From NCBI GenBank assembly GCA_015956445.1, contig WIUZ02000007.1:2045587-2109586 (forward strand): a stretch of DNA of 64,000 nt, read 5' to 3'. Below the pieces are notes generated by a model. It did no database searches, was not told where the DNA came from, and was given only the letters and a program-made list of their open reading frames with translations. Source of the DNA: Thelephora terrestris. Lineage: Eukaryota > Basidiomycota > Agaricomycetes > Thelephorales > Thelephoraceae. Positions 51,301-54,433 of this stretch are shown piece after piece; the first letter of the stretch is position 1, and the number at the start of each line of letters is the position of its first letter. The position numbers were made by a program, and so were the translations under genes.

Positions 51301-52074
51301 CCTGAACAAGCTCTCGTTTACAGTGCGTGATTGTTGCGGCCGAGGGAACGATGTCAAATTTCTCTTGATACCAATCGGAAAACGAGTCAGGAAGCTATGT
51401 CACATATCAGTTATTGATGATCTATAGAGAGTGTAACGTAAATAAACATACCGAAGGAAAATAGGCCCCATGATGAGCCGCATGCGAGGAGGGCTGGCAG
51501 CGGATATATTTGGAGAGGTTCCCAAAATAAAATAGACAGGCCATAGGGATGCGGTTCCAAACTGTGCAAGCATTGTCGCATCTGAGTACGGAGCCATTTC
51601 CACCACAACACTCTCGGCATCAGGGTGGTCTGGATCTGGGGGAAGGTTCTGAACTTCTTGATACGCAGTGATCATCTCATCTGAGGTATACGCTTCTCCG
51701 TACAGTCGGATTGATGGTGCGTCACTTGTCGGCCTCCATCTCTCCTCGAATGGCATCGTGTGAAACGACTCTGCTGTTGCCTCATCCTGACAGGCGTGCT
51801 TGATAATGGACGTCAGATCTCGATATAGGAGTCCCTCGATCTCGAACTCCATGGCGTCTGACTCGGCAACCTTCTCCTTGGGACATGGCACGGAGATCTT
51901 GACGTTGGCCTTGTTCCACCCCTGACCTTCGAGGCTCGACTCAAAGGCATCAAGCTTCTTGAGCTCACTAGCCAGTTTAACACCCTGGAGTTCCTCGGCC
52001 TTGAAGTCCTTGTGTAAGATGACGTCGTCGATCAGGCGTTGAACATCGGCTGTGGACTTGTGACCGGTTCCTGA

Positions 52075-53439
52075 CACTGGGGGCAGGGGTTGGTTTACTG
52101 AGTCAGTAAAGTGTGAGTAAATCACAAGTAAATGGAAAAAGAACCTAGCAAAATACTTGCCTGGCAAGCGCAAAGCAAATTCACAATTTACTGAGCCAAT
52201 TTACCTGCAATTTACTGGGTTCAGTATGCGCTCAGTATGTTTACAGTTTACTGGGTCATGTGACCACAGTTTCCCTGTTCGGTAAACCTTGGAAAAATTC
52301 ACGATTTGCTGACTAAATTTACCTGCAATTTACTGAGCCACTTGCCCAATCAGTATGTTTTCAATTTGCTGAGTGGTTTGATCACAGTTTACTGGACTCA
52401 GTAAACTGGAAAAAAACCAAACTGGTTTACTGACGATGTCCCTGATTGGTCAATTTTAAAAATAACCGAAAATTTACCTGGATGTGTCATTGTCAGTAAA
52501 CTGCAAGTTTTCTTTCAGTAAATTGGAAATACATGTCAGGTAAACTGGGAAAACACGTGACAATTTGATTATGGTTTACTGGACTCAGTAAATCACAAAA
52601 AACCTAACCGGTTTACTGACGATGTACCTGATTGGCTAATTTGAAAAAAACTCGAAAATTTACCAGGACGTGTCTTTATCACTAAACTGCAAGTTTTCTT
52701 TCAGTAAATCGCAAGTACACGTAAAGTAAACCAGAAAACACGTGTAAACTGTAAGTAAATTCAAAGTTTACGTGTTTTCTGGTTTACTTTACGTGTACTT
52801 GCGATTTACTGAAAGAAAACTTGCAGTTTAGTGATAAAGACACGTCCTGGTAAATTTTCGAGTTTTTTTCAAATTAGCCAATCAGGTACATCGTCAGTAA
52901 ACCGGTTAGGTTTTTTTGTGATTTACTGAGTCCAGTAAACCATAATCAAATTGTCACGTGTTTTCCCAGTTTACCTGACATGTATTTCCAATTTACTGAA
53001 AGAAAACTTGCAGTTTACTGACAATGACACATCCAGGTAAATTTTCGGTTATTTTTAAAATTGACCAATCAGGGACATCGTCAGTAAACCAGTTTGGTTT
53101 TTTTCCAGTTTACTGAGTCCAGTAAACCGTGATCAAACCACTCAGCAAATTGAAAACATACTGATTGGGCAAGTGGCTCAGTAAATTGCAGGTAAATTTA
53201 GTCAGCAAATCGTGAATTTTTCCAAGGTTTACCGAACAGGGAAACTGTGGTCACATGACCCAGTAAACTGTAAACATACTGAGCGCATACTGAACCCAGT
53301 AAATTGCAGGTAAATTGGCTCAGTAAATTGTGAATTTGCTTTGCGCTTGCCAGGCAAGTATTTTGCTAGGTTCTTTTTCCATTTACTTGTGATTTACTCA
53401 CACTTTACTGACTCAGTAAACCAACCCCTGCCCCCAGTG
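52075..53439. mobile_element. 1365-base foldback element, near-perfect palindrome with CACTG ends
   Basis: The left arm (from 52075) and right arm (to 53439) are reverse complements over about 660 bases. By eye I find one mismatch (AAACTGTG against AAACCGTG), one A6/T7 length difference and an imperfect centre near 52745-52766. Termini are CACTGGGGGCAGG and its complement. TGA flanks both sides (52072-52074 and 53440-53442), a 3-base target duplication as made by CACTA-superfamily elements. It interrupts the Plavaka-like transposase coding sequence. There is no open frame inside. Arms are packed with TTTACTG/CAGTAAA variants, and each contains a diverged duplication of about 187 bases. Confidence 0.9.
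52387..52750. repeat. Two diverged 187-base tandem copies inside the left arm
   Basis: GTTTACTGGACTCAG begins at 52387 and again at 52574. The following CGGTTTACTGACGATGT, ACTGCAAGTTTTCTTTCAGT and AAAACACGTG blocks recur in the same order. The right arm mirrors the same pair. Confidence 0.8.
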
Positions 53440-54433
53440 TGAACAGAACCACTGAATAAGGAGGGCGACGGTTGCATTCACAAACAGGCCCATCAGGCTG
53501 GATAAACCTGTCATAAACCCATTTGGCATCCGGAGACCGGAAGCAAGATTATCTGCGCATGCTTGGTGAGTTTCCCCAGATTCTATAAAGTCGTTGTGAT
53601 CTGGGATGGGTGTGTTAGAGAGTTCTGATATCGGACGTCGATTATAGACTCTAAAACGCCCAAACTCATCTGCCTCCGTTCTGAACCTCTCAAGTTCAAT
53701 TGGAGGAGTTGGTGAGATGGGGGGTGTTGAGGAGGGTTGTCTTTGACGTTGACCTGACTCCGTTTTCCTGGCCCTCCGACTCAGATCCATCACCCATCCT
53801 CCCTCCAGCGATTCGGGTCCCTTCCCCACCTGCCTGCCCTGTGTCGCGACGTATCGCGAGCCTCCCTCCTCGACCTGACGCTCCATCGACTCTCGCCAGT
53901 CTCCCGCCAGTCTCGCGACCTCCCGCCCGTCTGGACTTCACCAAAACTCTCTAAGTCCACATTCCGAGTCCGGCTTCCCCGATCCCGCGTGCCCTCCGAT
54001 CACTTCCGCCTCTCGACAATGACTCGACCCCTTGTTCGTCGTTGTTCGGATCCCCCGCATCGGTCCGTCGTCCCGACTCTGGAACACGTGCCTCCCGCTC
54101 CTTTGTTGCACGTCGACGCCGCCCCGATCCTCTCGCCGCGTTGCCCGACTCCCGCCTGTTCCACTTCAGCCATCTTTTGACGTCTTGGTTCGATCATCCA
54201 TTCTGTAGCTTCGTAGTTTCCCACGATGCCTTCATTCCTCCCTCACCCCTTCCCGCCGCCTTGTTCGTTCCTCCCGCGTTCTTGTTCTCTCTATCCGATC
54301 CGCTCTTCGCTTTGTATGACCTCCCTACGCCCTTCACGACCTTCACGACTCCCGTTCTCTCGCGACGTTCGCTTTGTTCACTTCTCTTTCTCCCTCTTTT
54401 CATGTTCTACTTTCGACCTCTCTCTCTACCCAC

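Follow-up and report, generated by a model that had tools for sequence, protein, structure and literature searches.

The 1365-bp palindrome carried by a 64,000-nucleotide stretch of Thelephora terrestris DNA (referred to as the window in the rest of the text) is probably a non-autonomous foldback-type transposon with CACTA/EnSpm-like ends that is moved in trans and in which one arm templates the other from the loop outwards. This reading draws on a dispersed family of palindromic copies, hereafter family 1, in which the two arms of an element resemble each other more closely than the copies do: across 35 full-length copies, the median mismatch was 5.13% between copies and 1.10% between own arms.

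In the window copy, two arms of 669 bases flank a 26-base loop and disagree by one mismatch at arm position 312 and a 1-base length difference at arm position 523 (Table 1). The first-pass annotation had described a coding-free palindrome of 1365 bases with arms of about 660 bases, one mismatch and one 1-base difference, bounded by CACTG...CAGTG ends with TGA on both sides; its by-eye count agrees with the computed arms, the ends and both TGA triplets are in place, and the longest ATG frame over 38 aligned copies spans 53 codons. As in foldback elements, internally repetitive inverted repeats (118- and 186-base repeats) make up most of the length. The motif CAGTAAA/TTTACTG, present in both orientations, occurs 15 times per arm compared to a mean of 0.22 and a maximum of 2 in 200 shuffles. 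Dense subterminal motif repeats are a feature of CACTA elements, which family-1 arms resemble in this respect. No Rfam match and no tRNA were found within the window. Elsewhere in the window, an 836-aa ORF (24092-26602) combines TPR repeats with an NB-ARC hit slightly below the cut-off, an NLR-like architecture, and a second TPR ORF lies near it (21187-22926).

Table 1. Features of the window element and its insertion target.
Feature	Window coordinates	Strand	Evidence or remark
Plavaka transposase coding stretch, insertion target	51400..52071	-	PF18759, E 3.5e-8, residues 49-188
Left target-site duplication TGA	52072..52074	.	Read directly; TGA single at empty site C4:1231263-1231555
Palindromic non-autonomous element, family 1, 1365 bp, CACTG...CAGTG	52075..53439	.	
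Left arm	52075..52743	+	Inverted-repeat match to right arm
Left terminal 27-mer (copy-counting probe)	52075..52101	+	Genome match count
118-base internal tandem repeat of left arm, 2.0 copies	52177..52415	+	
186-base internal tandem repeat of left arm, 1.9 copies	52387..52744	+	Mirrored at 52770-53137
Asymmetric 26-base loop	52744..52769	.	Recognisable in 38/38 elements compared
Right arm	52770..53439	-	Complementary to left arm
Right terminal 27-mer, reverse complement of left one	53413..53439	-	C58:2098999-2099025
Right target-site duplication TGA	53440..53442	.	Read directly
Target continuation beyond element, cut by LTR retroelement	53443..53746	-	C4:1231073-1231379 matches query 1-307 only; joined frame open

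The element had been placed inside a transposase gene, and this proved correct: the host gene is Plavaka (PF18759). One correction is needed, as Plavaka is the target of the insertion and nothing marks it as the mobiliser. When the flanks were joined with a single TGA, the frame remained open and read through WFCS-GTGHK as had been claimed, and the empty site with a single TGA that had been suggested as a check was found on C4, where the joined flanks match at 100% over 293/293 bases. Four more distant places also match across the joint, at 75-83%. The LTR retroelement in the Plavaka gene occupies window positions 53747-60477, with a 1318-bp LTR at 53747-55064 and reverse transcriptase and RNase H domains at 58180-60477; besides the segment copies on C13 and C14, it has five more copies with 95-99% identity over ~4.2 kb. 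The palindrome copies in the window, on C13 and on C14, which lie ~11-16 kb from contig ends, have both flanks in common, including the LTR retroelement at 53747, and because the flanks are common on both sides they represent one insertion copied with its surroundings, not three. C runs are shorter than in the window copy at the right ends of L041 and L042 and in L003 and L004; compared to the window, the flanks of L041/L042 and L003/L004 differ mainly by indels (0-7 mismatches and 8-11 gaps per 1.5 kb), as would be expected of homopolymer errors.

A search of the 40.6-Mb genome with the whole element returned at least 96 matches (40 of the 91 first-look candidates scored). The terminal 27-mer, with up to 3 mismatches, matched 72 times in forward and 69 times in reverse orientation (locations listed for 100 of the 141 places), and the reversed-pattern control gave 0 matches. 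The two counts therefore correspond to ~70 family-1 elements, partial ones included, which answers the earlier call for other genomic copies with the same ends. Pairing the ends within the fetched loci yielded 57 elements and left six ends unpaired, one of them the left end of the 6753-bp member described below and two belonging to the C13 and C14 copies, whose right-end C runs are shorter. An exact 3-base duplication, most commonly TGA/TCA (14/49), flanks 49/57 paired elements compared to 0.9 expected; 8/57 lack one and none (0/57) extends to 4 bases. Since the control for the ends gave 0 and exact duplications so exceed expectation, chance is excluded. Termini are CACTG..CAGTG in 54/57 paired elements, the left end being CACCG in two and TACTG in one. 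Length is uniform over many copies (1340-1400 bp in 35/57); the usual MITE is shorter.

One family-1 copy is nested in another (C3:158695-160059 inside C3:157876-160609, with an ATT duplication); the related segment C3:360669-362034 lacks the inner copy, and its second element (TAA) is missing from the C3:157876-160609 segment. In our view the probability that sequencing or assembly created the palindrome by folding back is negligible. The C13 and C14 copies do differ from the window flanks mainly by indels, suggesting some base-level error, but such an artefact does not account for exact 3-base duplications, an empty site that matches perfectly, an asymmetric loop conserved among copies, the nesting of one copy in another and the existence of two families (see below).

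The longer members of family 1 (2378, 3677, 4120, 6753 and 8248 bp) each consist of a palindrome copy, or part of one, that encloses other sequence. We rejected them as autonomous elements, as the sole above-cut-off match among ten ORFs scanned in the 3677-, 4120- and 8248-bp members was a nested DDE_Tnp_4. The 6753-bp member at C23:824496-831248 (L008 and L009, its right end falling in the adjoining locus) has TGA on both sides, has blocks in common with members on C15 and C4, and looks recombinant. In the 8.2-kb composite L013:856-9103, family-1 ends occur together with Harbinger sequence and with a nested palindrome of 872 bp that has a TCA duplication.

For the comparison of arms we aligned 38 of the ~70 family-1 copies (76 arms; the 35 full-length copies, the L021 outer copy and the C13 and C14 copies) and 9 copies of a second family, mostly high-scoring ones; removal of 8 near-identical copies left a non-redundant set of 30 family-1 elements. 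All 38 copies are palindromic around the same loop. In the 30 elements, own arms differ on average by 10.2 (over up to 655 columns) compared to 33.4 for re-paired arms (minimum 26.4 in 10,000 re-pairings), and in 19 of them each arm has the element's other arm as its nearest. A maximum-likelihood arm tree, whose bootstrap had not settled, placed the two arms as sisters with starred support in 13/30 elements. At 13 CpG-type positions picked as variable, decay in both arms gave the same product in 167/180 cases, compared to 112.7 expected. Together these comparisons support the view that family-1 arms evolve in concert. Homogenisation would be at best episodic, since 7/30 elements are asymmetric in their outer part and in 11/30 the own arm is not nearest to both.

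Family 2, with CACTGGGGAC ends, was found via a palindrome beside a nested Harbinger on C5. At least 28 places match essentially the whole 1088-base query (40 of the 96 candidates scored), and all nine copies read are 1225 bp long with a 3-base duplication. Aligned along its length, the family-2 arm is identical to the family-1 arm at 371/576 positions (~64%), with a score of 18.5 compared to -81 (sd 9) for 60 shuffles; descent of both families from a palindromic common ancestor is the simplest interpretation. With the loop omitted, each arm has its own partner as nearest in 9/9 copies, and the mean own-arm difference is 3.3 compared to 16.3 for re-paired arms (minimum 6.4 in 10,000). L049:1580-6001 and L072 correspond to a family-2 copy with a nested Harbinger bearing 73-bp ends, and two elements of ~440 bp, at C3:895052 and C12:2676205, are delimited by these ends as well.

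The first-pass annotation had attributed the near identity of the arms to recent formation or continuing arm-to-arm conversion. Arms that are identical for lack of time to diverge would suit the window copy, given its single mismatch, its 1-base gap and flanks that match the empty site perfectly. We nevertheless regard recent formation as extremely improbable: 38/38 copies have their palindrome centred on one common loop, although the full-length ones are ~5% apart; family 2 is palindromic too, with an arm ~36% diverged; and own-arm divergence lies well under between-copy divergence, which this explanation does not allow. The window insertion is therefore recent and the palindrome itself is not. 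Continuing conversion is the part of the earlier proposal that stood (5% between copies versus 1% between own arms), and arm identity is unusable for dating such insertions.

Because copies differ among themselves, matched changes in the two arms reveal the extent and the start of arm copying. We split the 30 elements, after seeing the data, into 23 symmetric elements with 0-11 own-arm differences and 7 asymmetric or chimeric elements with 23-36. In the symmetric group, 61/106 residual differences fall within the outer 82 of 655 columns, and the ratio of own-arm to between-copy difference is 0.50 there and 0.02-0.15 further inward (outer versus inner half, P = 1.2e-5; elements 15 versus 4, P = 0.019). 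At shared-polymorphic columns of the same 23 elements, arms are equal in 98.7% of cases at the 55 inner columns (66.5% expected) and in 82.6% at the 10 outer columns (61.7% expected). Every residual difference of L030, L033, L037, L038, L044 and L056 lies within columns 8-96, L033/L037 and L030/L056 being related pairs. Family 2 behaves similarly, with 15/30 own-arm differences within the outer 80 columns and a ratio that is 0.51 there and falls to 0.00-0.15 over the following 240 columns; it returns to 0.51 in columns 321-400, on very few differences, and the unmatched loop lies in the last block. Among the 23 symmetric family-1 copies, arms are thus matched almost completely in the interior but with only about half the effect in the outer 82 columns, a pattern that points to copying of one arm from the other, starting at the centre. 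In the 7 asymmetric or chimeric elements the ratio is 1.0 at the ends and declines to 0.21 towards the centre, a gradient that inter-copy crossover would also yield, and exchange between copies could blur or imitate part of the centre-to-end gradient.

If every transposition rebuilt the element from one arm, through a copying or hairpin intermediate, new insertions would be born symmetric and symmetric copies would result. Seven closely related pairs show no flank similarity (~100 bases compared on each side), and two of them bear directly on this explanation. In L068/L069, own arms differ at 9 core columns and matched arms at 0; in L036/L043, arms differ at 28 columns and matched arms at 0-2. 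Identical arm differences are thus retained by copies whose sites are unrelated, so that movement carries both arms unchanged and is not in itself a source of homogenisation. Rebuilding at each transposition is largely refuted by these pairs and is quite improbable, though a rare version of it may occur.

Exchange between copies is also apparent. Three of the 35 full-length copies lack a duplication and all three are chimeric, compared to 7/35 chimeric overall (hand-computed 35/6545 = 0.005). The L021 outer copy and L023 occupy one common insertion site in related segments that are 95.9% identical over 1721 bases and 91.9% over the nearer 172. The two copies are ~7% different, with 31 mirrored and 34 one-arm differences; the own-arm difference is 4.5% for one copy and 1.1% for its counterpart, and the arm tree groups neither L021 outer arm with L023. 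Once the segment had been duplicated, at least one of the two copies must have changed, whether through matching of its arms, through replacement by sequence of another copy, or through both. The pair is evidence of exchange between loci, but by itself it does not allow arm matching to be read. Inter-locus gene conversion and crossing-over might be held to give the whole pattern, given the chimeric arms in 7/30 elements, the chimerism of every full-length copy without a duplication (3/3) and the different lineages at the site common to L021 outer and L023. Such exchange samples donors separately for each arm, however, and own arms are nearest in 19/30 elements and in 9/9 of family 2, which it would produce only if symmetric donors pre-existed; as the sole cause we consider it unlikely.

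Selection for a perfect RNA hairpin, feeding or foiling RNA silencing, could remove arm mismatches with no special copying of DNA. For a hypothetical transcript of the element, the computed fold pairs the two ends and everything between them, at a predicted -1239.7 kcal/mol, and two families have stayed palindromic across a long divergence. Against this, the matched changes include products of CpG-type decay at scattered positions (the 167/180 above), and whole long tracts match, which is hardly expected of single-site selection acting on dozens of dispersed copies. We give this explanation a low probability.

The reading we prefer, arm-templated copying from the loop, would proceed as follows. 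The element consists almost entirely of inverted repeat and is composed of subterminal-type motif repeats. Between transpositions, or following one, its arms would pair, either in an extruded cruciform or because a nascent strand folds back where a fork has stalled. One arm would then serve as template for the other, with copying starting at the loop and moving outwards. In several lineages the copying tracts would end ~80-100 bp short of the element ends. Exchange between copies would generate chimeras, and a cycle of exchange and re-symmetrisation would keep the family palindromic. Template switching homogenises short inverted repeats and sometimes flips the spacer, according to the accessible parts of PMC8604942 and PMC8794818. 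Loop and arm kinship (columns 1-655, loop columns excluded) were concordant in 9 of 11 informative pairs and look inverted in only 2, which is weakly compatible with template switching, the small number of inverted pairs counting against it. Mismatch repair in an extruded cruciform could be an alternative route of arm matching.

Long palindromes are expected to be fragile, and cellular repair of, or copying through, palindromes is hard to observe. With ~70 palindromic copies and at least 28 places holding a cousin in one genome, palindrome repair becomes countable in existing genomes. A tentative extension, somewhat more apt to be wrong than right, is that the family persists as kilobase hairpins because of centre-outward re-copying of its arms. 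Each of its dozens of insertions would then record a palindrome-repair tract, so that tract lengths of template switching or cruciform repair could be assayed in a eukaryote from natural material, and palindromy may be a functional state that is actively kept, as a hairpin DNA or RNA stage, and not an accident.

To place family 1 among known transposons we considered its ends, its duplications and its possible mobilisers. EnSpm elements have CAC..GTG termini and 3-bp duplications according to the accessible text of PMC12730594; the first-pass annotation had named CACTG ends and 3-base duplications as CACTA features, and both fit EnSpm/CACTA, so that family 1 fits a CACTA-like assignment by ends and duplication size. 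It differs from CACTA/EnSpm elements in being without coding sequence. The Transposase_21 domain (PF02992) gave 73 genome hits, one of which (C12:933742) lies ~1.1 kb from a family-1 copy without duplication; among the PF02992, PF13359 and Plavaka candidates looked at, no mobilising transposase was found between family-1 ends CACTGGGG..CCCCAGTG. PIF/Harbinger was rejected as mobiliser: two of seven PF13359 (DDE_Tnp_4) loci lie between CACTG ends, and both are nested elements. Inside C4:1091355-1099602, the Harbinger sequence stops at its own right terminus (a left terminus was not found in C4), and its relatives at C4:753500 and C12:1211000 have their own ends and duplications; the PF13359 gene within the C5 copy of family 2 is bounded on either side by 73-bp ends that belong to it. 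Plavaka, with 132 genome matches, was likewise rejected. It is placed in the same CMCT clade as EnSpm, and the window copy sits inside a Plavaka gene, but the termini published for it in the accessible text of PMC12730594, TGT..ACA (2 bp) or CATCA..TGATG (2-3 bp), set it apart from the CACTG..CAGTG of family 1.

Among foldback elements, family 1 most invites comparison with Galileo and Tetris of Drosophila, as these are described in the accessible portions of the cited papers: all have long, internally repetitive inverted repeats and non-autonomous copies. Galileo belongs to the P superfamily and makes 7-8 bp duplications (PMC3573991, PMC4168063), unlike the 3-bp duplications and CACTG ends of family 1; the 12 chimeric Galileo copies lack matching duplications (PMC3573991), a likeness to the duplication-less full-length copies found here. 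In two of three complete Tetris elements the repeats group together, for which homogenisation was suggested, and there too an autonomous partner was not found (PMC4079207). Centre-outward homogenisation of arms is described for neither in these portions. In the literature, mainly outside subscription journals, we found neither a palindromic family of CACTA-like elements in a fungus nor a transposon whose arms are homogenised from the centre outwards. Sex-chromosome palindromes, with their arm-to-arm conversion (PMC8981503, accessible part), and template-switched short inverted repeats resemble family 1 in that arms are kept alike by copying arm from arm; both differ from the case described here, a dispersed mobile family with ~0.6-kb arms and many replicate outcomes in one genome. 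Foldback chimeras and homogenisation by template switching each have precedents in the literature searched, and what appears new is the combination, a foldback-type architecture on CACTA-like ends with arms that appear to evolve in concert.
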